From Rhizobium sp. C4 (GTDB taxonomy: Bacteria > Pseudomonadota > Alphaproteobacteria > Rhizobiales > Rhizobiaceae), in assembly GCF_021026315.1 (NCBI RefSeq), contig NZ_JAJNCX010000011.1, positions 103,018 to 167,017 of the forward strand: a stretch of DNA of 64,000 bases, written 5' to 3'. A program made the position numbers and the translations under genes. The notes under the pieces are model-generated. The model was not told the DNA's origin and searched no databases. It saw nothing but the letters and a program-made list of their open reading frames with translations. Positions 37,288 to 60,984 of this stretch are shown here, piece by piece (position 1 is the stretch's first letter; the number at the start of each line of letters is the position of its first letter).

Positions 37288-37317
37288 TATAAATACTAAC
37301 ATTTTAGAATATGACAA
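37288..37317 (-). promoter_or_regulatory. Promoter of the MBL gene with variant CTAGAATAT-type site
   Basis: Minus strand: TTGTCA (37312-37317), 18-bp spacer, TTTATA (37288-37293). The spacer holds ATACTAACATTTTAGAATAT (37293-37312, plus-strand reading), i.e. two half-sites ATACTA and TTAGAATAT separated by a few bases rather than abutting at CTAG. Confidence 0.55.
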
Positions 37318-37457
37318 GAGGCCTCTAGGGGTTTGTATTGTCCACGGCCGCTCCCGTTGAAGTGCCAAGATGGGAGAACAAGCGGTACCGCGGGTCGCAT
37401 GGCAGGGATTGAAGTGGAAAAGCGTGTCAGGGATGCGCTAAGAAGAACGGCCTTGAA

Positions 37458-37499
37458 TTGCAAATTAGGCACGATAAGAGTTATACTAGTGTTTTAGAA
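37458..37499 (+). promoter_or_regulatory. GntR gene promoter with variant operator
   Basis: TTGCAA (37458-37463), 18-bp spacer, TATACT (37482-37487). ATACTAGTGTTTTAGAA (37483-37499) covers the -10 and the start of transcription and has the same spaced half-site form as the MBL site (ATACTANNNTTTTAGAA in both). This is where an autorepressor would bind. Confidence 0.55.
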
Positions 37500-37519
37500 G
37501 GCGAGCTGCGGGATAGGTA

Positions 37520-38203
37520 ATGCTGCGACGAGAAAAGACGGGCCTGGGCGTTCAAGTATATCAGCACGTAAGGCAGATGCTTCTGGACGGAACGCTCCCC
37601 GTGGACAGCATGGTTCCAATCGACGCAATCGCGAGTGATCTCGGCGTCAGCCGTCAGCCGGTCATGGATTCTGTGCGGCGACTTGCGCTTGAAGGCTTCA
37701 TCAGCATCATTCCGCAGGTCGGCAGCTATCCTCGCCAGTACAGTGTTCAGGAGATGGTCGACTTCTATCGGCTGTTCGCTGAGGCGGAATGTGTCTGCGT
37801 CGCGCTTGCCTGCGAGCGTGCCGAGCCCGCCCATATCAGGCAACTTAAATCCATTTCGTCAGAAATCGCCCAGCTGGTGAAGAAGCCCCCGAGCGGAAGC
37901 GAACTGGCGCGGGAGTATCGCAGGCTGAACCAGAGATTTCATTCTGAAATCCACAGCATGATCGGATCCGCCCCGCTTGCGGACTCCACCGAAATCATGG
38001 GCGACCTCGGCGACTTCATGGTTGCCACGGCGAAGGCACCTATTTTCATGGAGCGTCTCAAGATCGCTCATAAGGAGCATCAGGAGTTGATCGCTGCGAT
38101 CGAGTCCCGCGACGCGACGCGTGCCACCACAGTCATGAGGCAGCATGTTCTGGCGGTCGCCGAGCGAATCGCGAAGGTGGGCGGGCAGCAGCCCGTCAAA
38201 TGA
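37520..38203 (+). CDS. GntR-family transcriptional regulator (FadR/FCD type)
   Basis: 227 residues. N-terminal winged helix: KTGLGVQVYQHVRQMLLDGT, then SMVPIDAIASDLGVSRQPVM and DSVRRLALEGFISIIPQVGS, typical of GntR proteins. The C-terminal helical effector domain (FCD) runs from EMVDFYRLFAEAECVCVALA to AHKEHQELIAAIESRDATRA, including the His of the AHKEHQELI metal-site helix. It probably senses a pathway intermediate and represses the island. It is the only specific regulator inside the cluster before the TetR gene at the right end, and its own promoter carries the island motif. Regulation of the other promoters is inference. Confidence 0.85.
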   Translation: MLRREKTGLGVQVYQHVRQMLLDGTLPVDSMVPIDAIASDLGVSRQPVMDSVRRLALEGFISIIPQVGSYPRQYSVQEMVDFYRLFAEAECVCVALACERAEPAHIRQLKSISSEIAQLVKKPPSGSELAREYRRLNQRFHSEIHSMIGSAPLADSTEIMGDLGDFMVATAKAPIFMERLKIAHKEHQELIAAIESRDATRATTVMRQHVLAVAERIAKVGGQQPVK

Positions 38204-38399
38204 TCAGGCCAAAACGAAACGGACCGGGACTACAGCGTTAGTCGGCGAAGCAAGCAAGCGACAGGAAATTACGCGAATTTTGCTGGCTCGCAAAACACCT
38301 TCGGGCGGGCTTAGAGGCTCGTTTCCGTCGGATGAGACGCTGAAAGGCATCATGTTCCGTGCCCTGATTGAACCGACGCCATCCGAGGATTCAGGGAGA

Positions 38400-39418: not shown

Positions 39419-39447
39419 TTGACCGAACAAAAATACTAGAATATATA
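39419..39447 (+). promoter_or_regulatory. P450 operon promoter with CTAGAATAT site
   Basis: TTGACC (39419-39424), 17-bp spacer, TATATA (39442-39447). The island motif ATACTAGAATAT (39433-39444) fills the 3' part of the spacer and enters the -10. Confidence 0.7.
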
Positions 39448-39570: not shown

Positions 39571-40842
39571 ATGACTTCGAGAACCACTCTCAGCGAAATC
39601 CCTGCCGGATGCCCCATGCATCAGGCCGGAGAGCGTTTTCAGCCCTTCGAACACAAAGGTATGACAGACTTCTATGCGTCCGTGCGACCTGAGGTGCCGA
39701 TCTTCTACGCCCCGAGCATCGACTGCTGGGTCGTTACCCGGCGGGAAGATGCGCTGGCGGTCCTGCGGGATCACGAACGCTTCTCGGCCTCGAACGCCAC
39801 GGCACCGATCGTACCCTGGCCCGAAGAAATGCATCAATTCCTGCGGGATCAGCATTTCACCAATGAGAGCGTACAGGTTGCCTGCGACCCCCCCAGGCAT
39901 ACGCGCGGTCGCAATGCGGCGATGACATTTCTAAACATGAAGAAGTTTCAGAACTATGAGGCCGATGTCAGAGCTCTTGCCCGCTCATATATCAATGAAA
40001 TCAGCAATAGCGGCAAAGACGTCGTCGATCTTGTGGAATCCTTCACCTACGAATACCCCGCAAAGGTGGCCTTTCTTGTCCTCGGCGAAAAGCAACTTGA
40101 CGCCCGCAAGCTGAAACAGTGGGCCGATCTGCGCATCAAGCTGATCTTTGGTACACTCACCCATGAACAGCAAATGGAGGCAGCGCGCGATCTGGCTGAC
40201 TTCTGGCATTTTGCCAGTGCATTGGTCGAGCAGCGCAAGAAGCATCCTGGCGACGACTATCCAAGCGCATTGCTCGCCGCACGCGCCGGCGACGATTCCA
40301 TTCTCACAGAAAACGAGGTCAAGAGCCTCGTGTTCGGGCTGCTTCTTGCAGCGCATGAGACGACAACGAACGCCGCCGGAAATCTGCTTTTCGAACTACT
40401 CAAGCGACCGATAACCTGGCAAGCGATCGTCGAAGATCAATCCCTGATCCCAAACGCGGTCGAGGAAGGCCTGCGATACGCGACATCGACCATTGCCTGG
40501 CGCCGTCGAGCCAAAGTGGATGTGGAGATTGCGGGAGTCCAGCTTCCTCAGGGATCACAGATCCTGCTTTCACTAACTTCGGCCAACCGTGATGAGAAGC
40601 AGTTTACCGATGGAGAGATTTTCGACATTGGACGCAGCAATGCCCGATCCCACATCGCGTTCGGAAACGGCATTCATCACTGCCTGGGCGCACCGCTGGC
40701 GCGGATGGAATTGCGCATCCTGCTTGAGGAGTTGACCACCGCTTTCCCGAAGATGCGGCTGGAGGACGAGGAGTCGATCAGCTTTCTCCCGACATTGTCG
40801 TTCCGCGGGCCAGATCGTCTACCGGTTCGGCTGAACGGATAA
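39571..40842 (+). CDS. Cytochrome P450
   Basis: 423 residues after GGGAGGTAGAC. Oxygen-activating I-helix AAHETTTNAAG (~261-266), ExxR in VEEGLRYATS (~298-301), and the haem loop FGNGIHHCLGAPLARMEL with Cys371 as the thiolate ligand. It is a soluble class I bacterial P450 (like P450cam, CYP101/CYP199-type relatives) fed by ferredoxin. The matching [2Fe-2S] ferredoxin follows 111 nt downstream and the reductase is in the opposite operon at 41391-42596, so a complete three-component monooxygenase is present. The substrate is unknown; the operon carries the island promoter motif. Confidence 0.92.
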   Translation: MTSRTTLSEIPAGCPMHQAGERFQPFEHKGMTDFYASVRPEVPIFYAPSIDCWVVTRREDALAVLRDHERFSASNATAPIVPWPEEMHQFLRDQHFTNESVQVACDPPRHTRGRNAAMTFLNMKKFQNYEADVRALARSYINEISNSGKDVVDLVESFTYEYPAKVAFLVLGEKQLDARKLKQWADLRIKLIFGTLTHEQQMEAARDLADFWHFASALVEQRKKHPGDDYPSALLAARAGDDSILTENEVKSLVFGLLLAAHETTTNAAGNLLFELLKRPITWQAIVEDQSLIPNAVEEGLRYATSTIAWRRRAKVDVEIAGVQLPQGSQILLSLTSANRDEKQFTDGEIFDIGRSNARSHIAFGNGIHHCLGAPLARMELRILLEELTTAFPKMRLEDEESISFLPTLSFRGPDRLPVRLNG

Positions 40843-40952
40843 GATGAGAGTAAACCGGTGAGAATAAAACCGCCCGGCTGATCATTCTTGCCGGGCACAT
40901 GCATCCTATCCATTACCCTTCAGCGCCTATCTGTGGAAACACGGGACATTTC

Positions 40953-41276
40953 ATGCCAAAACTCACCTTCATATCCTCCTCCGGAGATCGACACGAAATT
41001 GCCGCCTCTAATGGCGCGTCCGTCATGGAATGCGCCATAGAACATGGGATCGAAGGCATCGTTGCCGAATGCGGTGGCTCCATGTCGTGCGGAACGTGCC
41101 ACGTCTATCTTGATCGGGAAACTTACGAGCGTCTGGGCACCCCACCCACAGCTGAAAACGATCTGCTCGACTTCGTGAATGCGCCTCGTCGCCCGACCAG
41201 CCGCCTCAGCTGCCAAATCAAGGTGGACGAACATCTTGACGGCGCGGTCATTTCAGTTCCGCAAAGCCAATACTAG
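40953..41276 (+). CDS. [2Fe-2S] ferredoxin (putidaredoxin/adrenodoxin type)
   Basis: 107 residues from ATG at 40953. Cluster ligands Cys40, Cys46, Cys49 and Cys87 follow the CX5CX2C...C pattern (AECGGSMSCGTCHVY, LSCQIK). This is the vertebrate/putidaredoxin type that passes electrons from a flavoprotein reductase to P450. It is in the P450 operon; a weak hairpin (GCCCGG/CCGGGC, 40872-40896) in the gap could lower its expression relative to the P450. Confidence 0.92.
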   Translation: MPKLTFISSSGDRHEIAASNGASVMECAIEHGIEGIVAECGGSMSCGTCHVYLDRETYERLGTPPTAENDLLDFVNAPRRPTSRLSCQIKVDEHLDGAVISVPQSQY

Positions 41277-41390: not shown

Positions 41391-42596
41391 TCATATATCA
41401 ATCAGCATGCGCAGGACCTGCGGGCCCTGCCTGATTTGCTCTGCGGTCGGTTTTGCCGAAGCAGCCAGCAGCCTGCGCGCCAGCACGTGCTCGGCCGGAT
41501 TGTTGATGGTCTCGACTGCCACCAGATCTGCACCACGCAGATGATAGACCGCGAGGCGGCCCGGTTCGTCGCGCACGATCCGTTCTGTTGAACCGGACGA
41601 TAATCCGGCGATCTGCAATTTTGCAGGCCCTATGTCAGACCAGAACCATGGGATTGACTGATAGGGTTCTACTCGCGAAGTAGCGATACATCTGGCGACG
41701 TGACGAGCCTGGTCGGTGGCGTTCTGGACGCTTTCAATCCTCAATCGTGTTCCGTCTTCGCGAGACGTCACATTTGCGACGTCGCCGATTGCCCAAACGC
41801 CGGGCGATGTTGTCCGTAGAGCGGGATCGACCAAAATGCCATTGTCAGTGGCGAGAGACGGGGAATGCGCGAGCCTCACCTCCGCGTCCGCACCGATACC
41901 GACCACGACGAGATCGGAAGCAACTCTGCCGCGATTGGTCTCAATCCCGATGACGCGCCCTTCTTTGCAATCCACATTGATGATTTGAGTGTTGCTCAGG
42001 ATCTCGACATTCATTTCTTCAAGAACAGCCTCAACCGCCGCAGAGATTTCTGCAGCGGCTACGCGCTTGAGCACGCGATCGGCGGCTTCCAGCACGACAA
42101 CGTCCCGCCCGGTTGATCGAAGCGACGCAGCAAGCTCGAGACCAATGAATCCTCCGCCAACGATCACGACGCGGCGGGTCTCCATCATCGCCGCTCGCAG
42201 CGCATAAGCATCCGCCAGGGATCGCAGGGAAAATACGTTGCTGGCCTTCGGCCAGGCTGTGAAACTGCGGTTGCGCGATCCGGTCGCAAGAACCATGTGC
42301 TCATAGGAGAGACGCTGTCCACTCTCCAAAGCGACCTTCCGACCGACAATATCGACATGCGATGCGCGCCCGGCAATTCTCTCGATCTTGCGATCGTCAT
42401 AGGCGGATGCGGGACGAAGCGGCATTGGTCTCGCGTCGCTCTGCTTGAGAAACGTCTTCGATAGCGGCGGTTTGTGATAAGGAAGCTCGCCTTCCGCGTC
42501 GATCAGGGTGATGGCCCCATCATAACCCTCATCGCGCAAGCTGATAGCGAGTTGGCTTCCGCCGTGGCCGGCACCGATGATGACGACACCGCTCAT
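41391..42596 (-). CDS. Ferredoxin reductase (FAD/NAD, putidaredoxin reductase type)
   Basis: Start ATG at 42594-42596; 401 residues. FAD motif VIIGAGHGGSQLA, second fold VVIVGGGFIGLELAASLRS for NAD(P)H, and the FAD-contact segment PGVWAIGDVANV. Family of putidaredoxin reductase/rubredoxin reductase. It supplies electrons from NAD(P)H to the [2Fe-2S] ferredoxin. It is the last gene of the leftward operon starting at 47905, 23 nt after the NmrA-like gene, so reductase and P450 are placed in two converging transcripts under the same promoter element. Confidence 0.9.
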   Translation of the reverse strand: MSGVVIIGAGHGGSQLAISLRDEGYDGAITLIDAEGELPYHKPPLSKTFLKQSDARPMPLRPASAYDDRKIERIAGRASHVDIVGRKVALESGQRLSYEHMVLATGSRNRSFTAWPKASNVFSLRSLADAYALRAAMMETRRVVIVGGGFIGLELAASLRSTGRDVVVLEAADRVLKRVAAAEISAAVEAVLEEMNVEILSNTQIINVDCKEGRVIGIETNRGRVASDLVVVGIGADAEVRLAHSPSLATDNGILVDPALRTTSPGVWAIGDVANVTSREDGTRLRIESVQNATDQARHVARCIATSRVEPYQSIPWFWSDIGPAKLQIAGLSSGSTERIVRDEPGRLAVYHLRGADLVAVETINNPAEHVLARRLLAASAKPTAEQIRQGPQVLRMLIDI

Positions 42597-42619
42597 GAGC
42601 GCCTCCCTGCGCAACCCGC

Positions 42620-43267
42620 TCAATACACGAACTGGATATGAGCACGATGTCGGCTCGGTCTTTCAATCTCGGCCGCAACGGCAGCGGCAAAATCTTCGCC
42701 GCCAATGGCCGATTTTCCTTCCGGGTCAAAAAGCGCCACCTCGTCACCCACACGATAGGTGCCTCGACGCTCGCCCGGGGCGAAGCCACCAAAGACGCGA
42801 CCAGGGCTCATATAAAGCCAGTCAAGATCGCCTGGCGCCTCGGAAAGCAGGCATTCTAGTACGTCTGCTGTTTCTCGTGCTGCGACGGCAAACTCCGGCG
42901 CAACTGTGCCTGTATCTATGAATCGTTGGGCGTCGGGGCTGGGACGAAGCGCCGTGAAGCCGCCTACGACCAGCAAACGGGCCTTAGCCTGTGTCGCCAA
43001 ACCGATGACGCCGCGATAAGCTCCGACCATTGCGCCCGCGAGCTCACCGCGCGGGGAGAGCGCACCGACAACAACATCGGCGCCCTGCAAAAGGGGTTTG
43101 ACGGCCTCGATGTCGGTGATGTTCCCATGCCGATAATCAACGCCTGCTACAGGCTCTGCCGTTCTCGAACGGCTGAAGGAGGTGACATGATGGCCGCGGG
43201 CAACAGCCTCGCGCGCGATGTGTCGACCTGCATAACCGGTTCCACCGATAACAACTATTCTAGCCAT
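42620..43267 (-). CDS. NAD(P)-binding NmrA/SDR-like protein
   Basis: 215 residues. Rossmann start IVVIGGTGYAGRHIAREAVA and the YRHGNITD and ALSPRGELAG elements fit the NAD(P)H-binding NmrA-like (atypical SDR) family; the classical Tyr-x3-Lys is not evident. It could be a reductase, an isomerase, or a redox sensor. Its position between the extradiol-type dioxygenase and the ferredoxin reductase suggests a pathway role. It lies 45 nt downstream of the VOC gene. Confidence 0.7.
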   Translation of the reverse strand: MARIVVIGGTGYAGRHIAREAVARGHHVTSFSRSRTAEPVAGVDYRHGNITDIEAVKPLLQGADVVVGALSPRGELAGAMVGAYRGVIGLATQAKARLLVVGGFTALRPSPDAQRFIDTGTVAPEFAVAARETADVLECLLSEAPGDLDWLYMSPGRVFGGFAPGERRGTYRVGDEVALFDPEGKSAIGGEDFAAAVAAEIERPSRHRAHIQFVY

Positions 43268-43312
43268 TTTGCCATTCCTCCCGGTCGTGTGTTTGTGGTG
43301 AGCAACGCCGCA

Positions 43313-44203
43313 TCAGGGTTCGAGCGCGAAAGGTATGCCGGCCGCCCGGTATTCCGGGCCTTCCAGCGGTCCCCAGAGGTTGCGCACCCGGCTTTCGGGA
43401 CCGAGGGACCATGTGCGGGGCATATAGATGTCGTCGGAATCGATGCGCTCCATTTCAATCGAGTTCTCGACCACGCAGCCGTTCGGGTCGGCGTAATAGG
43501 TGAAGATATTGTCCCCGGCCCCATGCCGCCCCGGTCCCCACAGCATCGCGCGACCCTTGAGTGCAAGCGTGTCCGCGATCGTCGCGAGATCCTCGAAGCA
43601 GCGAACGTCGAATCCGTAGTGGTGAAGTTTCGCTTCCCCGGTGCCGATCGCGATCGTGTGATGGAAGCCGTCGGCAGCCCTGAACCATTGCAACTCATCA
43701 TGCGTGGTGCGATCGGAAAGCTTCATCCCGAACACGGTCTTGCAAAAGGTGCCGAACTCTTTCGCGTCCGTAACGCGAATATTGACATGCTCCAGACGAA
43801 CAGGATGCGCGCCGTGTCCCCCATATCGGGCGGTTTGGTCACGCGGCACGGGCGTATGCACTTCGAATATCGGCCCCTGCGGCGTGACAAAACGCACGGC
43901 CTTGTCGATATGGGGGAAATAAGACCGGTCGGACAGAATTTCACAGCCGTTCTCGATCGCCCGCCGCCTCACTTCATCGACCGCGCCTGGATCAATTGCC
44001 TCAAGACCGAGGGCCAGAACGGCCTTGCGATTGCTTCTGAAATAGCCGACCTCATGCTTGCGGGTGTTGCTCGACAGGGTAACCAGACCTGGCGTCCGAT
44101 CTACGATGCGAGGGCCGGAAATCTCGGCGAGATCCTGCGCCGAGCCTTCGGGATCGGGCGTGGCGAGCGCAATGTGGCCCATCTGACGAATAAGGTAGCT
44201 CAC
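43313..44203 (-). CDS. Extradiol-type ring-cleavage dioxygenase (VOC superfamily)
   Basis: 296 residues from GTG at 44201-44203 with GGAGGAG 7 nt upstream. Two VOC modules. The metal ligands of type I extradiol enzymes can be placed at His139 (RLEHVNIRV), His194/195 (KLHHYGFDV) and Glu246 (CVVENSIEM). The family opens catechols next to the hydroxyls (meta cleavage), using Fe(II). Length equals 2,3-dihydroxybiphenyl dioxygenase. Function is supported by the following FAH-family gene. The catechol it accepts is unknown. Confidence 0.85.
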   Translation of the reverse strand: MSYLIRQMGHIALATPDPEGSAQDLAEISGPRIVDRTPGLVTLSSNTRKHEVGYFRSNRKAVLALGLEAIDPGAVDEVRRRAIENGCEILSDRSYFPHIDKAVRFVTPQGPIFEVHTPVPRDQTARYGGHGAHPVRLEHVNIRVTDAKEFGTFCKTVFGMKLSDRTTHDELQWFRAADGFHHTIAIGTGEAKLHHYGFDVRCFEDLATIADTLALKGRAMLWGPGRHGAGDNIFTYYADPNGCVVENSIEMERIDSDDIYMPRTWSLGPESRVRNLWGPLEGPEYRAAGIPFALEP

Positions 44204-44232
44204 GATGAATCTCCTCCTGCTGCAGATCTGGA

Positions 44233-45105
44233 TCAGATTGCAAAATCTGCGGGTTCTTTGACGATCCCGTTCCTCAGGATGCCGATCCCGGAAATCTCGA
44301 TCTCGACCTTGTCGCCAGCCTTCATCCAGAGCGGCGGCTTGTGGAATGCACCGACGCCACCGGTCGTCCCGGTGATGATCACGTCGCCCGGCTCAAGCGT
44401 GATGAAGCTGGAGCAATAGGAGACCAATTCCGGCACGTTGAAGATGAGATCATCGAGCGTAGCGTTCTGCACCTCCTCGCCGTTCAGCCGCGTTTTCAAG
44501 GTCTGCGCGGAGATATCCGGCAGTTCATCGGTGGTGACCAACCAGGGGCCAAATGCGCCCGTCTTGGGGAAATTCTTGCCCGGCGCAAATTGCTGAGAGT
44601 GGCGCTGCCAGTCGCGGACGCTGCCGTCATTGTAACAGGAATAGCCTGCAACGCGGTGCATGGCCTGCTCTGGCGTGACATAGCGACTGCGCTTGCCGAT
44701 AATGACCGCAAGCTCACCTTCATAGTCGAACTGCTCCGACACTTTCGGGCACAGCATATCCTCATTTGCTCCGACTTGCGTCTCGGCAAAACGGTTGAAA
44801 ATCATCGGCTTTGTTGGGGTCTCGCGACCGGTTTCCTTGATGTGGCTGGCATAATTGACACCCACGCAAAGGATCTTCGAGGGGTCCGTGATTACGGGCA
44901 GCAGACGGACATCGCCCCACGCGGCGGAGGGCTGCCCATTTGCGCGGGATCTGGCATACTCAAGCCCGGAGGGATCGGCAAGCAGCGCTCGAAGCGAGGT
45001 ATAACGATCGCCGAGATCAATGATACCGGTCGGTTTGGCGGCATCTCCCGTCACGAGACCGCAGCTCTCGCGACCACTCTTTTCAAGGTAGCTGATCAGT
45101 TTCAT
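44233..45105 (-). CDS. Fumarylacetoacetate hydrolase family protein
   Basis: 290 residues. Catalytic-domain phrases are present: KILCVGVNYASHIKETGRE, YEGELAVIIGKRSRYVTPEQ (metal-binding Glu-x-Glu), PLWMKAGDKVEIEISGIGIL and DVIITGTTGGVGAF. These enzymes split or hydrate beta-diketo or 2-oxo-hexenedioate-type acids. Next to an extradiol dioxygenase it probably processes the ring-fission product. Longer than the minimal catalytic unit by an N-terminal ~70-residue domain, as in many bacterial members. Confidence 0.85.
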   Translation of the reverse strand: MKLISYLEKSGRESCGLVTGDAAKPTGIIDLGDRYTSLRALLADPSGLEYARSRANGQPSAAWGDVRLLPVITDPSKILCVGVNYASHIKETGRETPTKPMIFNRFAETQVGANEDMLCPKVSEQFDYEGELAVIIGKRSRYVTPEQAMHRVAGYSCYNDGSVRDWQRHSQQFAPGKNFPKTGAFGPWLVTTDELPDISAQTLKTRLNGEEVQNATLDDLIFNVPELVSYCSSFITLEPGDVIITGTTGGVGAFHKPPLWMKAGDKVEIEISGIGILRNGIVKEPADFAI

Positions 45106-45137
45106 TGGCGTTTCAATCCTCTCAAATCCCTATTGTG

Positions 45138-51475: not shown

Positions 51476-51500
51476 CCTCCCTTCACTCAACCGCTTCGTT

Positions 51501-52271
51501 TCAGCCTGACCGAACCTGGCCGCCATCGACGTAGAGCGTCTGCGCCGTCATGAACGCGGCGTCGTCGCTCATCAGGAAGGACAGAGCACCGGCCAGATCC
51601 TTGGGCTCAGACGGGCGTGGAATGGCCTGTCGATTGGCGTGCGCCTCGAAGAGCTGCTCGGATGTCATGCCGTTGAAGTTGGGCTTGCGCGCCAGAGTGC
51701 CGGGCGTCCGCGTAAAGCCGGGCGCAATCGCATTGACCGTGATCCCGTCGGCGCCCAGCTCACTGGCGAGCGCACGCGTAAACCCGATAACGCCGGCCTT
51801 GCTGGCGATATAGTGCGTAAGCCCGGGGGCAACCTGCGCATAGGAATTGGAGGTCATGTTGACCACACGGCCCCATTTGCGCTGACGCATGCCTGGTACA
51901 AACTGCTTCGCCATCAGGAACATGGAATCGAGATTGACCGTGATCATCTGGCGCCATTGTTCATAGGACAGGTCCTCGAAACGGCAGCTCGGAAAGATGC
52001 CGGCATTGTTGACGAGGACGTCGCATCGGCCGAATCCTTCGAGGATGGTCACGCCAAGCTGCCTGACTGCTTCGGGATCCCCCACGTCGCATGCATGCGC
52101 CACGGCCTTGCCATTCTCCTTCGTGATCTCAGCAACCACTTCGTCGGCCGGAATACGGTCGACGATGACCACGTTCGCACCTTCCTGTGCGACACGCTGG
52201 GCAAAAGCGCGCCCAATTCCGGCAGCTCCGCCAGTGATGACAACCACTTTGTTTTGATGACGCTTTTCCAT
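51501..52271 (-). CDS. Short-chain dehydrogenase/reductase
   Basis: 256 residues from ATG at 52269-52271 (MEKRHQNKVVVITGG...). In-frame ATGs at 52283 and 52298 are also possible; the last lies almost on the predicted transcript start, so is less likely. Cofactor site TGGAAGIGRAFAQ, NNAGI, Ser in VVNMTSNSYAQ, THYIASKAGVIGFTRALA for Tyr-Lys, and TLYVDGGQ. First gene of a four-gene operon (SDR, SDR, HsaA-like hydroxylase, FAD hydroxylase). Two successive SDRs suggest a two-step alcohol-to-ketone conversion, for example after P450 hydroxylation. Confidence 0.85.
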   Translation of the reverse strand: MEKRHQNKVVVITGGAAGIGRAFAQRVAQEGANVVIVDRIPADEVVAEITKENGKAVAHACDVGDPEAVRQLGVTILEGFGRCDVLVNNAGIFPSCRFEDLSYEQWRQMITVNLDSMFLMAKQFVPGMRQRKWGRVVNMTSNSYAQVAPGLTHYIASKAGVIGFTRALASELGADGITVNAIAPGFTRTPGTLARKPNFNGMTSEQLFEAHANRQAIPRPSEPKDLAGALSFLMSDDAAFMTAQTLYVDGGQVRSG

Positions 52272-52306
52272 GACGAGTTCCATTAACTCCAATTGCATAA
52301 CGCCTT

Positions 52307-52333
52307 CTTATATTCTAGAGTTTCAGTTGTCAA
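52307..52333 (-). promoter_or_regulatory. Promoter of the SDR-hydroxylase operon with CTAGAATAT site
   Basis: Minus strand: TTGACA (52328-52333), short 15-bp spacer, TATAAG (52307-52312). ATATTCTAGAGT (52310-52321, plus reading) overlaps spacer and -10. Twenty bases (52302-52321) recur exactly at 60657-60676. Confidence 0.7.
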
Positions 52334-52464
52334 CGGGCAGTCCCTTAGGTTCGGAATGCACTCGGCCCCTCGGCTGACGAGGAAAACTCCGCGCGTAACC
52401 GCAACACGACGATCAGTTGGATGCCCGTTCTCCCGACCTCCGCTCATCCCGTAAGGAACCATCC

Positions 52465-53424
52465 ATGACGTTGAAATCATCCCCTCCGCTCCGGGCCTCT
52501 CTTGGTGAAATGGACCCGGAATCCATAGCTTTCATGGCGGCGCTGCCCGGAACGGCTGCGCCGCCGACGGTGGAGACAATGCGTGAAGGTCTGCGGCGCG
52601 CACGGCCTGGAAATCAGCCTGAATTGCCGCATGTTGCCTCGACACGAGAGTTTACCCTTGTCGGCGCACACGGTGAGTTTCAGGTGCGCTACCATCGAGG
52701 AATGCAGACTGCGAAGGAGGCGGACCTGCCCGTCCTTGTCTGGTTTCATGGCGGCGGCTGGGTCGTCGGAGATTTGGACAGTCACGATTGGGTCTGCCGC
52801 GTGATTGCAAATGCCGCCAACTGCGCGATCATCAGCGTCGATTACCATCTCGCGCCGGAACATCCCTTTCCCGCGGCATTCGATGACGCCGTGACAGCAA
52901 CGCGCTGGGTTTTTTCAAGCGCGGCAGTCTTGAAGATCGACTCTTCACGCATTTTCGTCGGCGGGGACAGTGCCGGCGGCAATCTTGCGACCGCGACGGC
53001 GATTGCGCTGAACGGCGACTCGCAAGTCAAGTTGCACGGGCAGGTCCTCGCCTACCCGATAACGGATCTGACATTCGACTACGACCCGCGGTTCGGAAGC
53101 GGGGTTGCTCTCACAAACGGTGATATGCACAGGTTCATGGACCTCTATGTGCCCGACACTGCGAAACGGCGGGATTGGCGATGTTCACCGCTTCTGGCTC
53201 CCAGCCACAAGGGCCTCCCACCGGCGAAGATCATTCTGGCCGGCTTTGATCCACTTTATGATGAAGGCGAAGCCTATGCGACGCGGCTGGCTTCTGAAGG
53301 TGTAGAGACACAGGTTTCACGTTTTCCCGGCCAGATGCACGGCTTCATGTCGCGGCCAAAGCCGATGCCGAAGGCGTATGAAGCCATCTCCGAGATCGCC
53401 GAGTTTCTGAGAACGCGCTCTTGA
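52465..53424 (+). CDS. Alpha/beta-hydrolase esterase, HSL family
   Basis: 319 residues from ATG at 52465 after AAGGAA. Oxyanion motif WFHGGGWVVGD, nucleophile elbow FVGGDSAGGNLAT, catalytic Asp in AGFDPLYDEGEA and His in PGQMHGFMS. Hormone-sensitive-lipase-type carboxylesterase, cytoplasmic. It might open an ester or lactone formed in the pathway. It diverges from the SDR operon; the site at 52307-52333 lies between and may act on both, though no clear plus-strand promoter box is visible. Confidence 0.88.
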   Translation: MTLKSSPPLRASLGEMDPESIAFMAALPGTAAPPTVETMREGLRRARPGNQPELPHVASTREFTLVGAHGEFQVRYHRGMQTAKEADLPVLVWFHGGGWVVGDLDSHDWVCRVIANAANCAIISVDYHLAPEHPFPAAFDDAVTATRWVFSSAAVLKIDSSRIFVGGDSAGGNLATATAIALNGDSQVKLHGQVLAYPITDLTFDYDPRFGSGVALTNGDMHRFMDLYVPDTAKRRDWRCSPLLAPSHKGLPPAKIILAGFDPLYDEGEAYATRLASEGVETQVSRFPGQMHGFMSRPKPMPKAYEAISEIAEFLRTRS

Positions 53425-53602: not shown

Positions 53603-53634
53603 TTGACGAACCGCCTTCTTTTATACTAGAATTT
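53603..53634 (+). promoter_or_regulatory. Flavin reductase promoter with CTAGAAT-type site
   Basis: TTGACG (53603-53608), 18-bp spacer, TAGAAT (53627-53632). The motif ATACTAGAATTT (53623-53634) differs from the consensus only at its last bases and overlaps the -10. Confidence 0.55.
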
Positions 53635-53669
53635 ATGAAGATGGAAATCGCTGCTGTCGAAGGAGCCTC

Positions 53670-54209
53670 ATGTCCATGCCTCTGATTGATACGGTCGAAC
53701 CTTCTCCAAGCGCAGCTTTCGACATGCGCGAATTGAGGGATTGCTTTGGCGCATTCTACACGGGCGTCACGGTCGTCACGACAACCGACGATGCGGGGCG
53801 TTTTTACGGGACCACCGTCAATTCCTTCAGTTCTCTGTCGCTGGATCCGCCCTTGATCTTGTGGAGTCAGCGCCGTGTCGCGGCCACGTTTCCTGTTTTT
53901 GGCGCCGCACGATACTTCGCCGTCAATATCCTGTCCGAGGACCAGGTCGAGATATCGCGGGTCTTTTCCAGCAGCAGCCCGGACAGGTTTGCCGGTGTGA
54001 AGACGCAACCGGGGTTGGGCGGCGTGCCCCTCATCCTCGGCTGCTCGGCCTATCTCCAATGTTCAAGGGAGACGAGCTATCCAGGTGGCGACCATGAGAT
54101 TTTTGTTGGTCGCGTCGAGCAGATCGAGACCATGAAACGCGCGCCGCTGTTGTTCGGTGCGGGAAGCTACCGGACATCTCAGCCCTTGCAAGCGAGCATC
54201 AGTCAATAA
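53670..54209 (+). CDS. Flavin reductase, two-component type
   Basis: 179 residues after AAGGAG. FMN-binding split-barrel features: FGAFYTGVTVVTTTDD, YGTTVNSFSSLSLDPPLIL (FMN contact), ARYFAVNILSEDQVEIS and ETSYPGGDHEIFVGRVE (His of the active site). It belongs to the HpaC/HsaB-type NAD(P)H:flavin reductases that supply reduced flavin to oxygenases. The natural partner is the HsaA-like hydroxylase at 49321-50556; the luciferase-like enzymes at the right end may use it too. Confidence 0.88.
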   Translation: MSMPLIDTVEPSPSAAFDMRELRDCFGAFYTGVTVVTTTDDAGRFYGTTVNSFSSLSLDPPLILWSQRRVAATFPVFGAARYFAVNILSEDQVEISRVFSSSSPDRFAGVKTQPGLGGVPLILGCSAYLQCSRETSYPGGDHEIFVGRVEQIETMKRAPLLFGAGSYRTSQPLQASISQ

Positions 54210-54297: not shown

Positions 54298-54696
54298 TCA
54301 AGCTTCGGCAGGGCGACGAAGACCATCCAACGTCCAACTGCCCCCGCCTGCGAAGGCGATATAGAGAAAAATGAAGCAAAAAAAGATCGCGGATTCGCCC
54401 ATGTTCAATGTCGGCCAGAAACTGGAAGGCATGTGGCCCTTGAAATACGCGATAGCCATTTCACCGGATGCGATGAAGGCCGCTATGCGGGTCTGGTATC
54501 CAACCAGAACAAGGATCGACGTGACGGCCTCAATGAGGCCGGCAGCCATCAGGATCGTTGGCAGGGGGTGGCCCACTCCCGGTATCGCTGCTGGAAACTG
54601 CAGAAATTTCATCGTCGCATGTTCCAGGAAAAGAAGTGCGGTCACAATCCGAAGAATGGCCAGGATATTGGGTGTCCAATTGTTGAAGTTCGGCAT
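54298..54696 (-). CDS. DoxX-family membrane protein
   Basis: 132 residues from ATG at 54694-54696 (GGAG upstream); the longer frame upstream is not protein-like. Four hydrophobic segments: LAILRIVTALLFLEHATMKF, LPTILMAAGLIEAVTSILVL, AAFIASGEMAIAYFKGHMPS and AIFFCFIFLYIAFAGGGSW. DoxX-like proteins occur near redox and aromatic-degradation genes, with unclear biochemical role. Its promoter about 370 bp upstream carries the island motif, so it appears to be a regulon member. Confidence 0.8.
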   Translation of the reverse strand: MPNFNNWTPNILAILRIVTALLFLEHATMKFLQFPAAIPGVGHPLPTILMAAGLIEAVTSILVLVGYQTRIAAFIASGEMAIAYFKGHMPSSFWPTLNMGESAIFFCFIFLYIAFAGGGSWTLDGLRRPAEA

Positions 54697-55063
54697 GCTG
54701 TTGGCTCCAGTTATTTCTCGTTTCCCTCTGGCAGCAGGCGCTGCCGTTGCTTTCGTTATGCTTGAGACGGACTCCAGCCCGCCGGCTTGTGGACCGGCAG
54801 TCAGCCTTTGCTGCCTGGAAAGGCTGCTCCTGCGGGTGAGGAGCAATTTGAAGGGTTGTGAGACCCTCATGCTGGAAAGACGAGAACGCCATGCCACTGA
54901 TGCGCATGCATTCGGTGGATACTCTGCGGCGCCCACCGAAAAGCTCCATTCCTACAATGTGTTCAGTGACATTCGGATCCTTTGCGACAGCAAGCGTGTG
55001 CGGTATCTCGTGCTAAGGCCTGGTGCTCCATTCTCCCAACCGACGCCGCGTCCTCCCGCCTTT

Positions 55064-55153: not shown

Positions 55154-55182
55154 TTGACAATTGTAAGATGCTAGAATATATC
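55154..55182 (+). promoter_or_regulatory. Promoter of the substrate-binding protein gene with CTAGAATAT site
   Basis: TTGACA (55154-55159), exactly 17 bp, TATATC (55177-55182). ATGCTAGAATAT (55168-55179) lies in the spacer and -10. It diverges from the DoxX promoter; the two sites are about 100 bp apart. Confidence 0.72.
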
Positions 55183-55329: not shown

Positions 55330-56484
55330 ATGAACCAATTTTCAAGACTCGCTTTCGGCGCCTGCATCGGCACGGTAGTGAGCGTAATAGCAGCCCTACA
55401 GGCTCAAGCCGAGATTGTCGTTGGCGGGACATTTTCGCTGACTGGCCCGGCCGCCGCGCTTGGAACGTCTTTTCAGCGGACGCTTCCTCTTCTGCCAAAG
55501 GAGATTGCTGGAGAACCGGTCCGCTATGTGATCGTCGATGACGGCTCGGACCCGTCGGCAGCCGTCCGAAACGTCCGGAAGCTCATTAACGAAAACCATG
55601 TCGATGTTCTGATCGGCCCCACCAATGCGGCGACCGGTTATGCCATCGCTCCCGTCCTCGGGGAGCTGAAGGTGCCTCTGATCTCCGGAACTGCGCTCGA
55701 TCTTTTCGGCGACAAGAGCGAATGGTTCATCAATTTGTCCACGCCGATCACCATGTGGGTGGCACAGATCGTCAATCACATGAAGGACAGCGGGCTAAAG
55801 AAGGTCGCCTTCGTCGGCTACAATGACGTCTACGGCGATACGGCGTTTGCAGCGTTTAAGAAGGATTGCGCCGAGGCCGGCCTCGAAATTGTCGCCGATG
55901 AACGTTTTGCCCGATCCGACACGAGCTTCGTTGGTCAGGCTCTTCGCATCTCGACAACCAAGCCTGACGGCGTCTTCATCGCAGCCTCTGGCAGCCCGGC
56001 CGTATTGCCCAACGCCACGCTGCGCGAACGTGGATATAACAAGCCCCTCTATAACGCGCCCGTCGCGGTGAGCCAGGATTTTCTCCGTTTGGGCGGCTCG
56101 AAGGTGGAAGGGGTTATTTCAGCGGCATACCTGATCGCAGTTCCTCATCAGATCCCCGACAGCAATCCATCGAAGAAGGCGGTCACCGAACTCTTCGACG
56201 AGTTCACAAAAATGTATCCCAACATGCAACCCGACACGCAGAACCCGACCGCATATGACTCCGGCGTGGTCCTCAAGATGGTTGCAACCGAGGCGCTCAA
56301 GGTCGCAAAGCCTGGCACCGAAGAATTCCGGGTGGCCATTCGCGATCGCCTGCACACGATTAACGGTCTTGTCGGCAGCGTGGGCGTATACCAGTTCAAA
56401 CCCGGCCAACCCTACGGTGTCCAGGAGAACAGTATCGTATTCGTCAACGTCAAGGACGGAAAATGGGCATACCTCGGAAAGTAG
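55330..56484 (+). CDS. ABC importer substrate-binding protein (branched-chain amino-acid/aromatic type)
   Basis: 384 residues after GGGAGGAACC. Signal peptide ends near LQAQA. Family 4 (LivK) features: IVVGGTFSLTGPAAALGTSF, DDGSDPSAAVRNVRKLINEN, VDVLIGPTNAATGYAIAPV, FVGYNDVYGDTAFAAFKKDC and PDGVFIAASGSPAVL. Many such proteins next to aromatic catabolism genes bind aromatic acids rather than amino acids. It is expressed rightward while the permeases and ATPases are on the minus strand from 60439, both under island-type promoters. Confidence 0.88.
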   Translation: MNQFSRLAFGACIGTVVSVIAALQAQAEIVVGGTFSLTGPAAALGTSFQRTLPLLPKEIAGEPVRYVIVDDGSDPSAAVRNVRKLINENHVDVLIGPTNAATGYAIAPVLGELKVPLISGTALDLFGDKSEWFINLSTPITMWVAQIVNHMKDSGLKKVAFVGYNDVYGDTAFAAFKKDCAEAGLEIVADERFARSDTSFVGQALRISTTKPDGVFIAASGSPAVLPNATLRERGYNKPLYNAPVAVSQDFLRLGGSKVEGVISAAYLIAVPHQIPDSNPSKKAVTELFDEFTKMYPNMQPDTQNPTAYDSGVVLKMVATEALKVAKPGTEEFRVAIRDRLHTINGLVGSVGVYQFKPGQPYGVQENSIVFVNVKDGKWAYLGK

Positions 56485-56913: not shown

Positions 56914-57630
56914 TCAGGCGCCTCCCAGATAGGCTTTTGCCAGGCGCGGGTCGTTGAGCAACTCGGCTGCCGAATTCTGAAGCGTGACTTCGCCCGTCTC
57001 CATGAGGTAGCCATAGTCCGCGCATTCCAAGGCAGCACGCGCGTTCTGCTCTACCAGTAGGATCGCAACTCCGGCTGCTTTCAGTTCCTTAATGATCCGG
57101 AAAATCTCCTGGACGATCAATGGCGCGAGCCCAAGACTCGGCTCATCGAGCATAAGGAGCCTTGGCTGGCTCATGAGCGCCCGGCCAAGCGCTAGCATCT
57201 GCCGCTCACCGCCCGAAAGGGTGCTTGCCTGCTGCTTTCGACGCTCGGCCAGCTTCGGGAAAAAGTCGAACACGTCGGCCATACGGTCACCCATACGGCC
57301 GCGCTGCCTGCGGTGAATATAATATCCCAGCTGCAGATTGTCCTCCACGGACATCGTCCCGAATAGCTCCCGTCGTTCCGGAACAAGGCACAGTCCCATC
57401 TCTGCGCGGTCTTCAACGTCGAGAAGATCAAGAGCATGACCGTCGAATTCGAAATGACCTGTCGCGGGGATCAGCCCCACGGCCGCATTCAGCAGCGTCG
57501 TCTTGCCGGCGCCGTTGGCGCCGATGATCGTGGCCATCGTCCCGGGTGAAACTTCTATGCTCGCGCCGTGCACTGCAGCGATCCTGCCGTAACTCACCTG
57601 CGCGTCGCGCACTTTCAGAATAGGGTTCAA
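56914..57630 (-). CDS. livF: ABC ATPase, LivF-like
   Basis: 238 residues from TTG at 57628-57630 (GGAGG 6 nt upstream; TTGA overlap with the gene before). Walker A IGANGAGKTTLLNA, signature LSGGERQMLALGRAL, Walker B LLMLDEPSLGLAPLIV and switch ILLVEQNARAALECADYG. LivF is the second ATPase of branched-chain-type importers. Last gene of the operon livH-livMG-livF. Confidence 0.88.
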   Translation of the reverse strand: MNPILKVRDAQVSYGRIAAVHGASIEVSPGTMATIIGANGAGKTTLLNAAVGLIPATGHFEFDGHALDLLDVEDRAEMGLCLVPERRELFGTMSVEDNLQLGYYIHRRQRGRMGDRMADVFDFFPKLAERRKQQASTLSGGERQMLALGRALMSQPRLLMLDEPSLGLAPLIVQEIFRIIKELKAAGVAILLVEQNARAALECADYGYLMETGEVTLQNSAAELLNDPRLAKAYLGGA

Positions 57631-59390
57631 ATTATGCCTCCCAAATAGGCTTCGCGCACCACGGGATTGGAACGAATCTCCTCTGGTGTCCCCTCCGCCC
57701 GCTGTTTTCCGAAGTCCAGCATGATGATGCGATCGACAAGACCCATCACGAATTCCATGTCGTGCTCTACGAGAAGCAGGGTCACACCGGCAGCGGATAT
57801 TTCCTTGAGCAACTGGCTGAGTTGCTCCTTTTCAAGACGCCGCAATCCTGCAGCCGGCTCGTCCAGGAGAAGAATAACCGGATCAGACGCCAGAGCTCTC
57901 GCAATCTCGACCGCCCGCTGTTGACCAAGCGGCAGGCTGCTCACCATGTCGTCTGCCCGCTCAAGCAAACCGATACGCTGCAGCTCCGACGCGGCCTGAG
58001 CGCGCAACTGCTTCTCGACCCCGGTATCCAGGTGCAGAGCTCCGGCCAGAAATCCCGTCTTTGTTCTGGAATAGGCCCCCAGCATCACATTCTCGAGTAG
58101 TGACATATTCGGTCGCAGCTTCACATGCTGGAACGTTCGGGCCACTCCTGCCTTCACCAGGTTTAGCGGCTTCTCCGATGTCAAATTCTGTCCCGAGAAC
58201 GTCACGGTTCCCTTGGTTGGTCGCAGGGCTCCGGAGATCAGGTTGAAGGTCGTACTCTTGCCGGCCCCGTTGGGACCGATCAGGGCGACGATTTCGCCCG
58301 CATTGACCTTGAAGTTGACGTTATCGACAGCGGTCAAGCCGCCGAACTTTTTTGACAGGCCGGCAACCTCCAAAAGGGGCGATCCGCGCTTCGGAAGCGA
58401 ACGCCGTTCAAGGGGTTCGGCAGCGAGTGAAACAGGTTCACGCTTGCGCCAACCGAAGCGGGGCAGCATGCCCACAAGCCCCGACCGGGCATGTTGCAAA
58501 ACCAGAATGAAAAGGCATCCGTAGATGATCTTCTCGAGGTTACCCGCGCGAGATGTGATCAGCGGCAGCAGATCCTGCAAAACGGAGTGCAGCGTCGTGA
58601 AGAGCGTGGCGCCAATGATCGCGCCGGCAATGTGACCGGAACCGCCGATGACCGCCATCAGCAGGAACTCGATGCCTGTCTGGATGCTGAACGGATCCGG
58701 GCCGACATATCGCTGGGAGTGCGCATAAAGCCAACCGGCAAGGCCTGCCAAAAGCGCGGAGATGACGAAGATCCCCAGACGGATGCGGAATTGACTGATC
58801 CCGAGGCTTGTGACAAGTGTCTCGCCGCCCTTGAGCGCCCGAATCGCCCGCCCCTGCCTGGACTGCATCAGGAATGTCGTTCCGATCACCACCAGGACAA
58901 GGCAGGCGGCGACCAGATAAAAGTACCGTTCTTGAGGTGCCAGAGAAATACCTGCGATCGAAAGCGCGGGAATATCACTGATGCCCGTGTGACCGCCCAA
59001 CTCCTCGATATTGCCGAACAATAATGTGATCACCATCCCCCACGCCAGTGTGACAAGCGCAAGATAGTGGCCCGAGAGGTGCAGCGTTATCATCCCGAGA
59101 ATCGTGGCTGTCAGTGCTGACAGCGCGAGCGCTACCGGCAGTCCCAGCCACGGGGAGAAGCCAAGATTGGCGCTGAGCACGGCCGTCGCATACGCGCCAA
59201 GCCCCACAAAGGCCGACTGGCCAAACGATATCAAGCCTCCCGATCCGGTGAGGATGACGATCCCGATGGCAACGATCGAATAGATGCCGACAAAATTCAG
59301 TATCGCGATGTAGAAACTGCCGAGAACAAAGGGCGCAAGTGCCACAATCACCAGCAGGGCGAGGCTCGGCAACCCGTAACGAATGGCCAT
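57627..59390 (-). CDS. livMG: Fused permease-ATPase (LivM-LivG)
   Basis: 587 residues. Residues 1-~310 are a LivM-type permease with about ten hydrophobic segments (IVAIGIVILTGSGGLISFGQ, GLGAYATAVLSA and others). From ~340 a LivG-type ATPase follows: Walker A ALIGPNGAGKSTTFN, GVARTFQHVKLRPNMSLLEN (Q-loop and LivG-specific FQ), signature SSLPLGQQRAVEIARAL, Walker B ILLLDEPAAGL and LLVEHDMEFV. Such natural fusions occur in this transporter family. ATG overlaps the livH stop (TGATG). Confidence 0.9.
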   Translation of the reverse strand: MAIRYGLPSLALLVIVALAPFVLGSFYIAILNFVGIYSIVAIGIVILTGSGGLISFGQSAFVGLGAYATAVLSANLGFSPWLGLPVALALSALTATILGMITLHLSGHYLALVTLAWGMVITLLFGNIEELGGHTGISDIPALSIAGISLAPQERYFYLVAACLVLVVIGTTFLMQSRQGRAIRALKGGETLVTSLGISQFRIRLGIFVISALLAGLAGWLYAHSQRYVGPDPFSIQTGIEFLLMAVIGGSGHIAGAIIGATLFTTLHSVLQDLLPLITSRAGNLEKIIYGCLFILVLQHARSGLVGMLPRFGWRKREPVSLAAEPLERRSLPKRGSPLLEVAGLSKKFGGLTAVDNVNFKVNAGEIVALIGPNGAGKSTTFNLISGALRPTKGTVTFSGQNLTSEKPLNLVKAGVARTFQHVKLRPNMSLLENVMLGAYSRTKTGFLAGALHLDTGVEKQLRAQAASELQRIGLLERADDMVSSLPLGQQRAVEIARALASDPVILLLDEPAAGLRRLEKEQLSQLLKEISAAGVTLLLVEHDMEFVMGLVDRIIMLDFGKQRAEGTPEEIRSNPVVREAYLGGII

Positions 59391-60439
59391 CAGAGTTCCT
59401 CCTCTTCTTCTTCAACCTCGGAATGGACTGACAAACCGCGCAGCAGGACGATCGGGATCAGCAATGCGAATACCGCAACATCCTTCAGGGCACTTGAATA
59501 GAAGGAGCCGAAGGACTCGATGATCCCGACAAGCAGGGACCCAAACAGAGCGAGCGGATAGCTTGCAATGCCGCCGATGGCCGCGCCGACGAATCCCTTG
59601 AGGCCGATCAGAAATCCGGTGTCCGAATAGACTGTGAGGCTCGGCCCGATCAAAATCCCCGAAATCGCTGCCAGCCCGGCTGCAATGAGAAACGCCGAGT
59701 TGCCGGCGGACGCCACACGGATGCCTACAAGACGGGCACCCACGCCGTTCACCGCAGTCGCCCGAAGTCCCTTGCCCCACAAAGTGCGTTCAAAGAGGAC
59801 GTAGAGGCCAACGGCAATGACTGCCAGAGCGATCAGAACCACAATATTAGCAGCCGGAATTTCAAAACTGCCAATGTTGAGGCTTCCACTGACATACTCC
59901 CTTGTCCGGTATCCCTCGGCTCCAAAGAACAGCAGCGCCAGACCTGCCATCGGGAAGTGAACCACGGCCGCCGTCATCAGCAAGGTCAGCACGGAGGCAG
60001 TCCGCATGGGCTGGAACACGACACGATACATGAGTGGACCGAGGGGGAGTATGAGCGCAAATGTCAGCGCGATCTGAAAGCCCATCGGCAATTCATATGT
60101 CGGAAGCACCGCCGCGACCGCCACTGGTGCACATGGCAAGACACCATAAGCGAAAATCGATCGCCACAGCATCGCAAGACGTTTGCGCCTGTAGAGCTCG
60201 AAGATTTCCATGAAGAGCGCCAGTCCCGCAAGAATGAGGATAAGCCACACCGTCCCAGGAAGGGTATTCGCCTGGATCGATGCCAGCGTAAGCACGGAAT
60301 AGGCAATCAGGTCCCCATATGAAACAAACGCGATGCGCGTTATGTTAAAAACAAGAACCGTGCCGAGAGAAAGCAGCGCATAAATTGCGCCACCGGCAAC
60401 TCCTTCTCTCAGGAGAAGCAGGGCAATATCAAAGTTCAT
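59390..60439 (-). CDS. livH: ABC permease, LivH-like
   Basis: 349 residues from ATG at 60437-60439. Hydrophobic throughout; GVAGGAIYALLSLGTVLVFN and IAFVSYGDLIAYSVLTLA are typical of LivH, and SGILIGPSLTVYSDTGFLIG, GFVGAAIGGIASYPLALFG give the conserved C-terminal part. It is ~50 residues longer than E. coli LivH owing to an insertion around 70-110 (LFMEIFELYRRKRLAMLWRS) and an acidic tail of seven Glu residues. Forms the channel with LivM-LivG. Confidence 0.88.
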   Translation of the reverse strand: MNFDIALLLLREGVAGGAIYALLSLGTVLVFNITRIAFVSYGDLIAYSVLTLASIQANTLPGTVWLILILAGLALFMEIFELYRRKRLAMLWRSIFAYGVLPCAPVAVAAVLPTYELPMGFQIALTFALILPLGPLMYRVVFQPMRTASVLTLLMTAAVVHFPMAGLALLFFGAEGYRTREYVSGSLNIGSFEIPAANIVVLIALAVIAVGLYVLFERTLWGKGLRATAVNGVGARLVGIRVASAGNSAFLIAAGLAAISGILIGPSLTVYSDTGFLIGLKGFVGAAIGGIASYPLALFGSLLVGIIESFGSFYSSALKDVAVFALLIPIVLLRGLSVHSEVEEEEEEL

Positions 60440-60664
60440 TTTAGAGATTCGCTCCCGACGATTATGCATCTTGCGATCGCAGTGGAGAGTGATCCACTGA
60501 GCGTTAAGTGCGGTGTGTTCTCTTACCCCAATCAGAGAGTCCGCTCACCCAAACGGCCCATTTTCATAGCCTCCACCCCGACCCGTCCTCCGGCCCACAT
60601 CCGTCCGGCCTATCAGCGCCGCATCGTCGCAGTCCGCCACCGAAACAGCGGTCTGGGCCTTCTT

Positions 60665-60678
60665 ATATTCTAGAGTAT
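60665..60678 (-). promoter_or_regulatory. CTAGAATAT site upstream of livH
   Basis: ATATTCTAGAGTAT on the plus strand (60665-60678); on the minus strand it reads ACTCTAGAATATAAG with TATAAG as -10, the same end as at the SDR operon promoter. A good -35 at the usual distance is missing (TTGACT is too far), so it may be an operator with a weak promoter. Confidence 0.5.
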
Positions 60679-60955
60679 TAGTTCAGAGATTGACGTGAGT
60701 CAACTTGGAAAGGCCGCCGACTGCGCCAGGAGGGTGAAGATCCGACTGAGCGCCCGATGCTGCGGCCGTGAGGTTGACAACCCGACTCCAGAGTTGCAAC
60801 TGCGCCAAGATCGTCATCTGCTGCGCAGACTTCTCAACGGATATTCACATCCGGCAATTGTTTTGTACACGCCCCAATCATACGCCAGCGCGATAGGAAA
60901 TCCTCGAAGAAATTCCCGGCCGGTCCTAGACCCTGCCTTCCGCGACAAGTGACAT

Positions 60956-60984
60956 AAAATATTCTAGAATTTCAATTCGGTCAA
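60956..60984 (-). promoter_or_regulatory. Distal leftward promoter with CTAGAATAT site
   Basis: Minus strand: TTGACC (60979-60984), 17-bp spacer, TATTTT (60956-60961). ATATTCTAGAATTT (60959-60972, plus reading). It is about 520 bp upstream of livH and the best-formed of the two promoters there. Confidence 0.62.

Follow-up and report, generated by a model that had tools for sequence, protein, structure and literature searches.

A CTAG-centred palindrome as the putative operator of an FCD-type GntR repressor in a catabolic island of Rhizobium sp. C4

The catabolic island and its recurring element

The 64-kb stretch of Rhizobium sp. C4 DNA analyzed here (contig NZ_JAJNCX010000011.1, positions 103,018 to 167,017), termed the window, carries a catabolic island in which genes for a cytochrome P450, an acyl-CoA ligase, an HsaA-like flavin monooxygenase, an extradiol-type dioxygenase and an ABC transporter are accompanied by gntR, coding for a GntR regulator with an FCD domain (Table 1). 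The 9-mer CTAGAATAT recurs in the gaps between these genes, and the comparative data presented below make it highly likely that the island's own GntR uses this CTAG element as its operator; it would thereby repress the catabolic units as well as its own gene. According to Pfam, GntR is the sole DNA-binding regulator among the open reading frames (ORFs) of the island that were scanned. Matches of all ten island proteins scanned against NCBIfam were below the curated cut-offs, so that no substrate is assigned.

A previous sequence-only reading had listed seven exact intergenic copies of the 9-mer. These copies are indeed present, compared to an expectation of 0.11 in the window, and none of 100 shuffled sequences reached seven, which makes the observation stronger than originally stated. 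The minus-strand positions of that reading (47941, 52310, 55067, 60665 and 60959) are exact, whereas its plus-strand positions, including those of the variants, were 3 bases too low: the exact copies are at 39436 and 55171, and variants at 53626, 37296 and 37486 bring the total to ten sites. The element had been taken as directional; aligned on CTAG, however, the sites form a two-fold symmetric 18-mer, TTATATTCTAGAATATAA, of which CTAGAATAT is one side. The sites at 47946, 60670 and 60964 match CTAGAATAT on the opposite strand, too, with one mismatch each, and the core ATnCTAGnAT is nearly invariant among the aligned sites of the window and of a second island described below. The supposed split versions at 37296 and 37486 are ordinary variants of the palindrome, the former serving the divergent metallo-beta-lactamase-fold (MBL) gene and the latter gntR.

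All ten sites fall in gaps between named island genes, as judged by our own gene models. In a permissive promoter scan that carries no estimate of chance, the centres of operator and best-scoring –10 candidate are no more than 9 bp apart at all ten sites, in agreement with the earlier proposal that the element lies on or beside the –10 region on either strand. The –10 candidate at 60670 is weak. Promoters in gaps between two genes point either way, and those carrying operator sites mostly have near-consensus hexamers.

Table 1 Genes of the island and proposed operator sites (window positions; promoters are given as –35 hexamer, spacer length and –10 hexamer)
Feature	Position	Strand	Context	Support
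gntR, GntR/FCD regulator, proposed repressor	37520..38203	+	helix SRQPVMD, I34/Q46/M49	Pfam GntR 1.8e-11, FCD 5.3e-16
MBL hydrolase	36241..37368	-	start probably near 37263	Pfam Lactamase_B 2.5e-13
Cytochrome P450 and 2Fe-2S ferredoxin	39571..41276	+		Pfam p450 1e-26, Fer2 2.4e-8
Acyl-CoA ligase, SCPx-type thiolase, FAA hydrolase, extradiol-type dioxygenase, NmrA-like protein, ferredoxin reductase	41391..47905	-	operon	Pfam, NCBIfam
Two short-chain dehydrogenases/reductases (SDRs), HsaA-like flavin monooxygenase, FAD aromatic hydroxylase	48005..52298	-	operon	Pfam, NCBIfam
Alpha/beta hydrolase	52417..53424	+	divergent from SDR operon	Pfam Abhydrolase_3 2.3e-72
Flavin reductase	53670..54209	+		Pfam Flavin_Reduct 4.7e-38
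DoxX-family membrane protein	54298..54936	-	true start probably further downstream	Pfam DoxX 1.6e-9
ABC periplasmic substrate-binding protein	55330..56484	+		Pfam Peripla_BP_6 2.5e-44
Branched-chain-type ABC transporter: permease, fused permease-ATPase, ATPase	56914..60469	-		Pfam
Operator-like ATAAATACTAACATTTTA	37289..37306		before divergent MBL gene, TTGTCA-16-TATTTA on minus strand	matrix score 18.5
Operator AGTTATACTAGTGTTTTA	37479..37496		on gntR promoter TTGCAA-18-TATACT, presumed autoregulation	18/18 bases kept in second island
Operator AAAAATACTAGAATATAT	39429..39446		before P450	17/18 bases kept in second island
Operator TTATATTCTAGAATCTAA	47939..47956		before CoA-ligase operon, minus strand, TTGACA-16-TATAAG	18/18 kept in second island
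Operator TTATATTCTAGAGTTTCA	52308..52325		before SDR operon, minus strand	18/18 kept in second island
Operator TTTTATACTAGAATTTAT	53619..53636		over –10 of flavin reductase, TTGACG-18-TAGAAT	17/18 kept in second island
Operator ATATATTCTAGTATTTAA	55065..55082		before DoxX gene, minus strand	17/18 kept in second island
Operator TAAGATGCTAGAATATAT	55164..55181		before ABC substrate-binding protein, TTGACA-17-TATATC	18/18 kept in second island
Operator TTATATTCTAGAGTATTA	60663..60680		before ABC permease operon, minus strand	18/18 kept in second island
Second operator of permease operon, AAATATTCTAGAATTTCA	60957..60974		294 bp further upstream, TTGACC-17-TATTTT, minus strand	matrix score 26.0

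The gene of the alpha/beta hydrolase may share the operator of the divergently oriented SDR operon. A DDE transposase ORF (38400-38972) is located between gntR and the P450 gene, and two luciferase-like monooxygenase genes (61033-62751 and 62565-63572), whose ORF ends overlap, adjoin the island.

Genome-wide distribution and a second island

The whole 5.2-Mb genome contains 17 exact copies of CTAGAATAT (4 for the reversed-pattern control), seven of which are in the window, six on contig C45 (305777-327232) and four elsewhere; in our reading, these four lack promoter-like context. The palindrome WNATNCTAGNATNW occurs at 12 places (2 for the control), namely six in the window, five in the C45 island and one on contig C34. 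Thus, 13 of 17 exact 9-mers and 11 of 12 palindromes of the genome are inside two islands. Sites occurring just as often outside promoters would have refuted the sequence-only reading, and the distribution obtained does not refute it. The lone palindrome outside the islands (C34:225150, position 2151 of locus L036) is situated in the gap before a gene coding for an FAD monooxygenase, opposite a gene which by eye probably encodes a TetR regulator, and is a possible additional member of the regulon.

The region at about 305.7-328.4 kb of C45 (loci L023 and L024) is an inverted collinear copy of window positions 37402-60467, with 75-80% nucleotide identity in the main blocks, and stems from either an old duplication or two separate acquisitions. 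Its GntR protein is 86% identical to that of the window. Eight of the window operators have counterparts at equivalent places in the C45 island, and in these shared 18-mers 141 of 144 bases are identical, as compared to 312 of 615 (about 51%) ungapped intergenic bases more than 32 bp away from the operators. Conservation of this kind amounts to a strong phylogenetic footprint. Neither the site at 37296 nor that at 60964 has a counterpart in the aligned C45 stretch; the former has a homologous site in R. oryzicola (position 9777 of locus L011). Around the operator of the SDR operon, about 50 bp including the leader (52288-52340) are nearly identical between the islands, which is more than operator and promoter need. 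A megablast search of the island against plasmids retrieved only short matches to ABC-ATPase genes, in 22 records.

The GntR regulator and its predicted DNA-contacting residues

With Pfam scores of 44 bits for GntR (cut-off 27) and 59.6 bits for FCD (cut-off 24.3), the window regulator belongs to the FCD (FadR) subfamily. Its AlphaFold model (mean pLDDT 88.7) shows six C-terminal helices (residues 76-220), which assigns it to the VanR group; the report on Atu1419 (PMC7797058) gives six such helices for this group and seven for FadR. The closest solved relative by sequence is Atu1419 of Agrobacterium fabrum, which is also the first Foldseek match by E-value, albeit exceeded in TM-score by other GntRs such as 7u5q. 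The residues N137, H141, H187 and H209, invariant in all 11 aligned GntR rows, form a predicted metal site of one Asn (or Asp) and three His, as is characteristic of metal-binding FCD regulators.

Over the contact positions, the residue numbering of the window GntR equals that of Atu1419. Helix 3 of the latter touches DNA via Ser44, Arg45, Thr46 and Arg49; on the operator ATGTATACAT, Arg45 contacts G3 and Thr46 contacts A5, while Glu34 provides a main-chain contact (PMC7797058). Of the contact set Glu34/Arg45/Thr46/Arg49 of the FadR subfamily, the window GntR keeps R45 but has I34, Q46 and M49. Regulators sharing its QPxM helix, in which R or K45 is retained, have I or V at position 34 in 21 of 21 cases, whereas other FCD-type GntRs have E34 and R49 in 23 of 23 and T46 in 22 of 23. 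Because Q46 and M49 define the QPxM set, position 34 is the sole independent observation among these residues. The operator core of both islands likewise deviates from the GntR consensus (N)yGT(N)xAC(N)y. An unusual branch of GntR repressors, with changed DNA-reading residues, very probably binds this palindrome.

Association of the palindrome with QPxM-type regulators

A CTAG counts here as qualifying if three or all four of its flanking AT bases are present. Such a CTAG was found at 14 of 16 loci whose GntR has an (R/K)QP(V/I)M helix, as compared to 2 of 25 loci of other FCD-type GntRs (p 3.5e-7). If just the 400 bp upstream of gntR are considered, the proportions become 8/16 and 0/25 (p 1.3e-4). 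The share of all CTAGs that qualify is 35/157 compared to 2/136. Eight other palindromic 4-mer cores did not show a comparable difference between QPxM and control loci. These counts exclude the window and C45, which were used for training the matrix, L011 (GntR 99% identical to that of the window), L032, L034 and L035 (lineage of L033), L051 (replicon of the same length as that of L031), L015 (gene beginning at a contig end) and L021 (where the profile did not find a GntR ORF). Although the ORF of L018 is frameshifted, this locus was counted among the QPxM loci on account of its helix, and the control set includes locus pairs from one genome (G031, G026 and G024) as well as L076 and L078, which have the same helix.

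Fourteen other genomes that code for a homologue contain 39 occurrences of ATNCTAGNAT, and 14 of these are no more than 20 kb away from the gntR homologue (0.39 expected); in G1013, which belongs to these genomes, the helix of the homologue differs (SRAPVV). Matrix matches exceeding all 60 simulated sequences (25 for L031) were obtained at the loci of GntR relatives (38-49% identity over the matched part) in Fulvimonas soli, Roseomonas rosea, Actibacterium naphthalenivorans, a Rhizobiales bacterium, a metagenome-assembled genome (MAG) of Kordiimonadaceae, and Sphingomonas paeninsulae. Loci of GntRs with 27-34% identity (L017, L019-L022) did not yield matrix matches above the simulations. By the simpler test of flanking AT bases, L017 (QPVMD helix) has a good CTAG palindrome directly upstream of gntR; L019, with Q46 but E34 and R49, contains one CTAG in 20 kb, which does not qualify. 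In G658, a relative found without regard to the motif, the sole CTAG of the 3.6-kb locus is the palindrome ATGCTAGTAT beside gntR. Four Sphingomonad loci (L055, L056, L057 and L040) with the helix SRQPIM have an operator variant around ATGCTAGTAT beside gntR, with TGCATGCTAGTATG in three of the four. In broad samples of genomes, close relatives were restricted to the present genome among 385 of the class, and to the present and one other among 398 of the phylum; a family around the latter yielded 11 of 397.

The theme common to target genes elsewhere is aromatic catabolism, with differing gene sets. Sites in L018 adjoin genes for a flavin reductase, an HpaB-type hydroxylase and a LigB-type dioxygenase, and those in L083 adjoin genes for a branched-chain-type permease, an FAD_binding_2 enzyme and an FAD ring hydroxylase; some of them overlap a mechanically predicted long ORF. 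In L018 (9880-10680, Kordiimonadaceae MAG), gntR is frameshifted and several operator sites are still present. Loci L081 and L082 (G1181:C21) share 132 bp (89%), including the operator, at both ends of a 51-kb contig.

Alternative explanations

Several regulators are frequently present in catabolic loci, and the palindrome might be the operator of a different, unlinked one shared by aromatic-catabolism loci, e.g., of the TetR, MarR or IclR type, with GntR as a mere neighbor. An IclR-type regulator gene actually adjoins a site in L018, as does the probable TetR gene the extra palindrome on C34. However, the island ORFs scanned did not include any regulator other than GntR, and the motif tracks the GntR recognition helix across loci of differing gene content, which renders an unlinked regulator improbable. 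If CTAGAATAT were a promoter element instead, such as an extended –10 recognized by an alternative sigma factor, this would fit the observation that six of the ten right arms double as –10 candidates, each centred 7 bp downstream of the operator centre (best or second-best fit). Yet the distance between –35 and CTAG varies (e.g., 9, 10, 11 and 17 bases), the promoters of gntR, flavin reductase and permease place the site elsewhere relative to –10, and the motif goes with one GntR type across phyla. Given the symmetry of the conserved unit and its variable place relative to –35, a directional promoter element was rejected, and we regard an explanation of this kind as very unlikely. Activation by GntR, or a dual role as repressor and activator, is doubtful in view of the sites' location on the –10 or the spacer of promoters mostly with near-consensus hexamers; moreover, Atu1419 is described as a repressor with palindromes over –10 boxes (PMC7797058). 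Chance, with its expectation of 0.11 copies of CTAGAATAT in the window, and dispersal as a repeat by a mobile element, to which the transposase ORF might point, are practically negligible: as the flanks beyond 32 bp from the operators are only about 51% identical between the islands, these have no larger repeat unit in common, and the repeat hypothesis was rejected.

Several observations weigh against GntR as the reader of the palindrome. The motif is missing from the QPxM loci L054 and L058, the control loci L060 and L071 each hold one qualifying CTAG, and an exact palindrome is missing from G880 and located away from gntR in G1084 and G1165. Autoregulation is not universal, since 8 of 16 QPxM loci lack a CTAG with at least 2 AT matches in the 400 bp upstream of gntR. 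Nor can the QPxM loci be treated as independent (they include several Sphingomonad subclades); six of those found first came from a search probed with VSRQPVMD, and membership was defined by Q46 and M49. For the Rhodococcus loci discussed below, 0.03 to 0.22 of the simulations reach the matrix score, which is not significant; site position is the only argument in that case. Nevertheless, a shared operator read by the island's GntR, as put forward by the sequence-only reading, is favored by the genome-wide concentration of the sites and their position-by-position conservation in the paralogous island, and also by the conserved site in the gntR promoter, the CTAG elements near GntR relatives elsewhere and the altered contact residues. 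The assignment to GntR is supported by comparison.

Proposed mode of regulation

From the computed sites, their conservation, their concentration in the genome and their association with QPxM-type GntRs, we infer binding and repression by GntR, the class of inducer, and cross-regulation of both islands. A GntR dimer would occupy the palindrome ATnCTAGnAT, overlapping or touching the –10 region of sigma-70-type promoters, and thereby presumably keep off RNA polymerase. The units silenced in this way would be those of gntR, P450/ferredoxin, CoA ligase, SDR/hydroxylase, flavin reductase, DoxX, substrate-binding protein and ABC permease, with weaker control of the MBL gene. The inducer would be an intermediate of aromatic or acyl-CoA type which, bound in the metal-containing FCD pocket, releases GntR, so that import, P450 attack, ring hydroxylation and cleavage would be switched on together. 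Since the second GntR has the same recognition helix, each regulator is predicted to act on both islands.

The regulator is best interpreted as a member of a branch of FCD/VanR-type GntRs that serves aromatic catabolism, putatively with repression of its own gene, and has an operator that would break the GT...AC rule. We lean slightly towards a broader view, namely that this is an undescribed, widespread branch in Proteobacteria and Actinomycetota which switched its DNA code: replacement of E34/T46/R49 by I/V, Q and M would have moved recognition from G3/C8, as in operators of the ATGTATACAT type, to the C4TAG7 core, and the pair of regulator and operator would have been re-used for different pathways, P450/HsaA-like here and elsewhere those of ring hydroxylases, HpaB-/LigB-type enzymes, and TonB- or MFS-linked loci. 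Within the very large GntR family, operator assignment usually relies on the GT...AC rule. A branch which is recognizable from three residues and whose operator is very different and easily scanned would make aromatic-catabolism regulons predictable from sequence in many genomes.

Comparison with known systems

A description of a CTAG-type GntR operator was not found in the open-licence PMC papers searched. The FadR subfamily as surveyed by Suvorova et al. (2015) shares with the present system the combination of GntR and FCD domains and short palindromic operators. That survey (PMC4494728) gives the consensus TKGT/ACMA (GT...AC), with BioR (TTATMKATAA) and NanR (direct repeats) as exceptions; its main text does not contain the string CTAG, and the operator proposed here matches neither this consensus nor the exceptions named there.

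Four Rhodococcus plasmid loci (L032-L035) of the ohp type, for 3-hydroxyphenylpropionate, include a gntR gene and resemble the island in the QP(V/I)M helix of the regulator (SKQP(V/I)MD) and in having two CTAG sites upstream of gntR, at distances of about 75 and 125 bp. They differ in the other catabolic genes and in the half-site variants GTACTAGAATGC and ATGCTAGCGTTCC. This gntR gene is presumably the one called ohpR, a name for which a literature search did not find anything.

Atu1419, a member of the VanR group of FCD-GntRs (PDB 6z74, 6za0, 6za3, 6za7 and 6zab), is about 24% identical to the window GntR. It represses an aromatic-acid catabolic region, and its 10-bp palindromes with AT outer ends overlap –10 boxes; its metal ligands Asn137, His141, His192 and His214 (PMC7797058) have four equivalents in the window protein. 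The difference lies in DNA recognition, with operator ATGTATACAT and E34/T46/R49 in Atu1419 as opposed to ATnCTAGnAT and I/V34, Q46 and M49 here. Comparison of the two regulators would provide a clean test of the residues that set GntR specificity.

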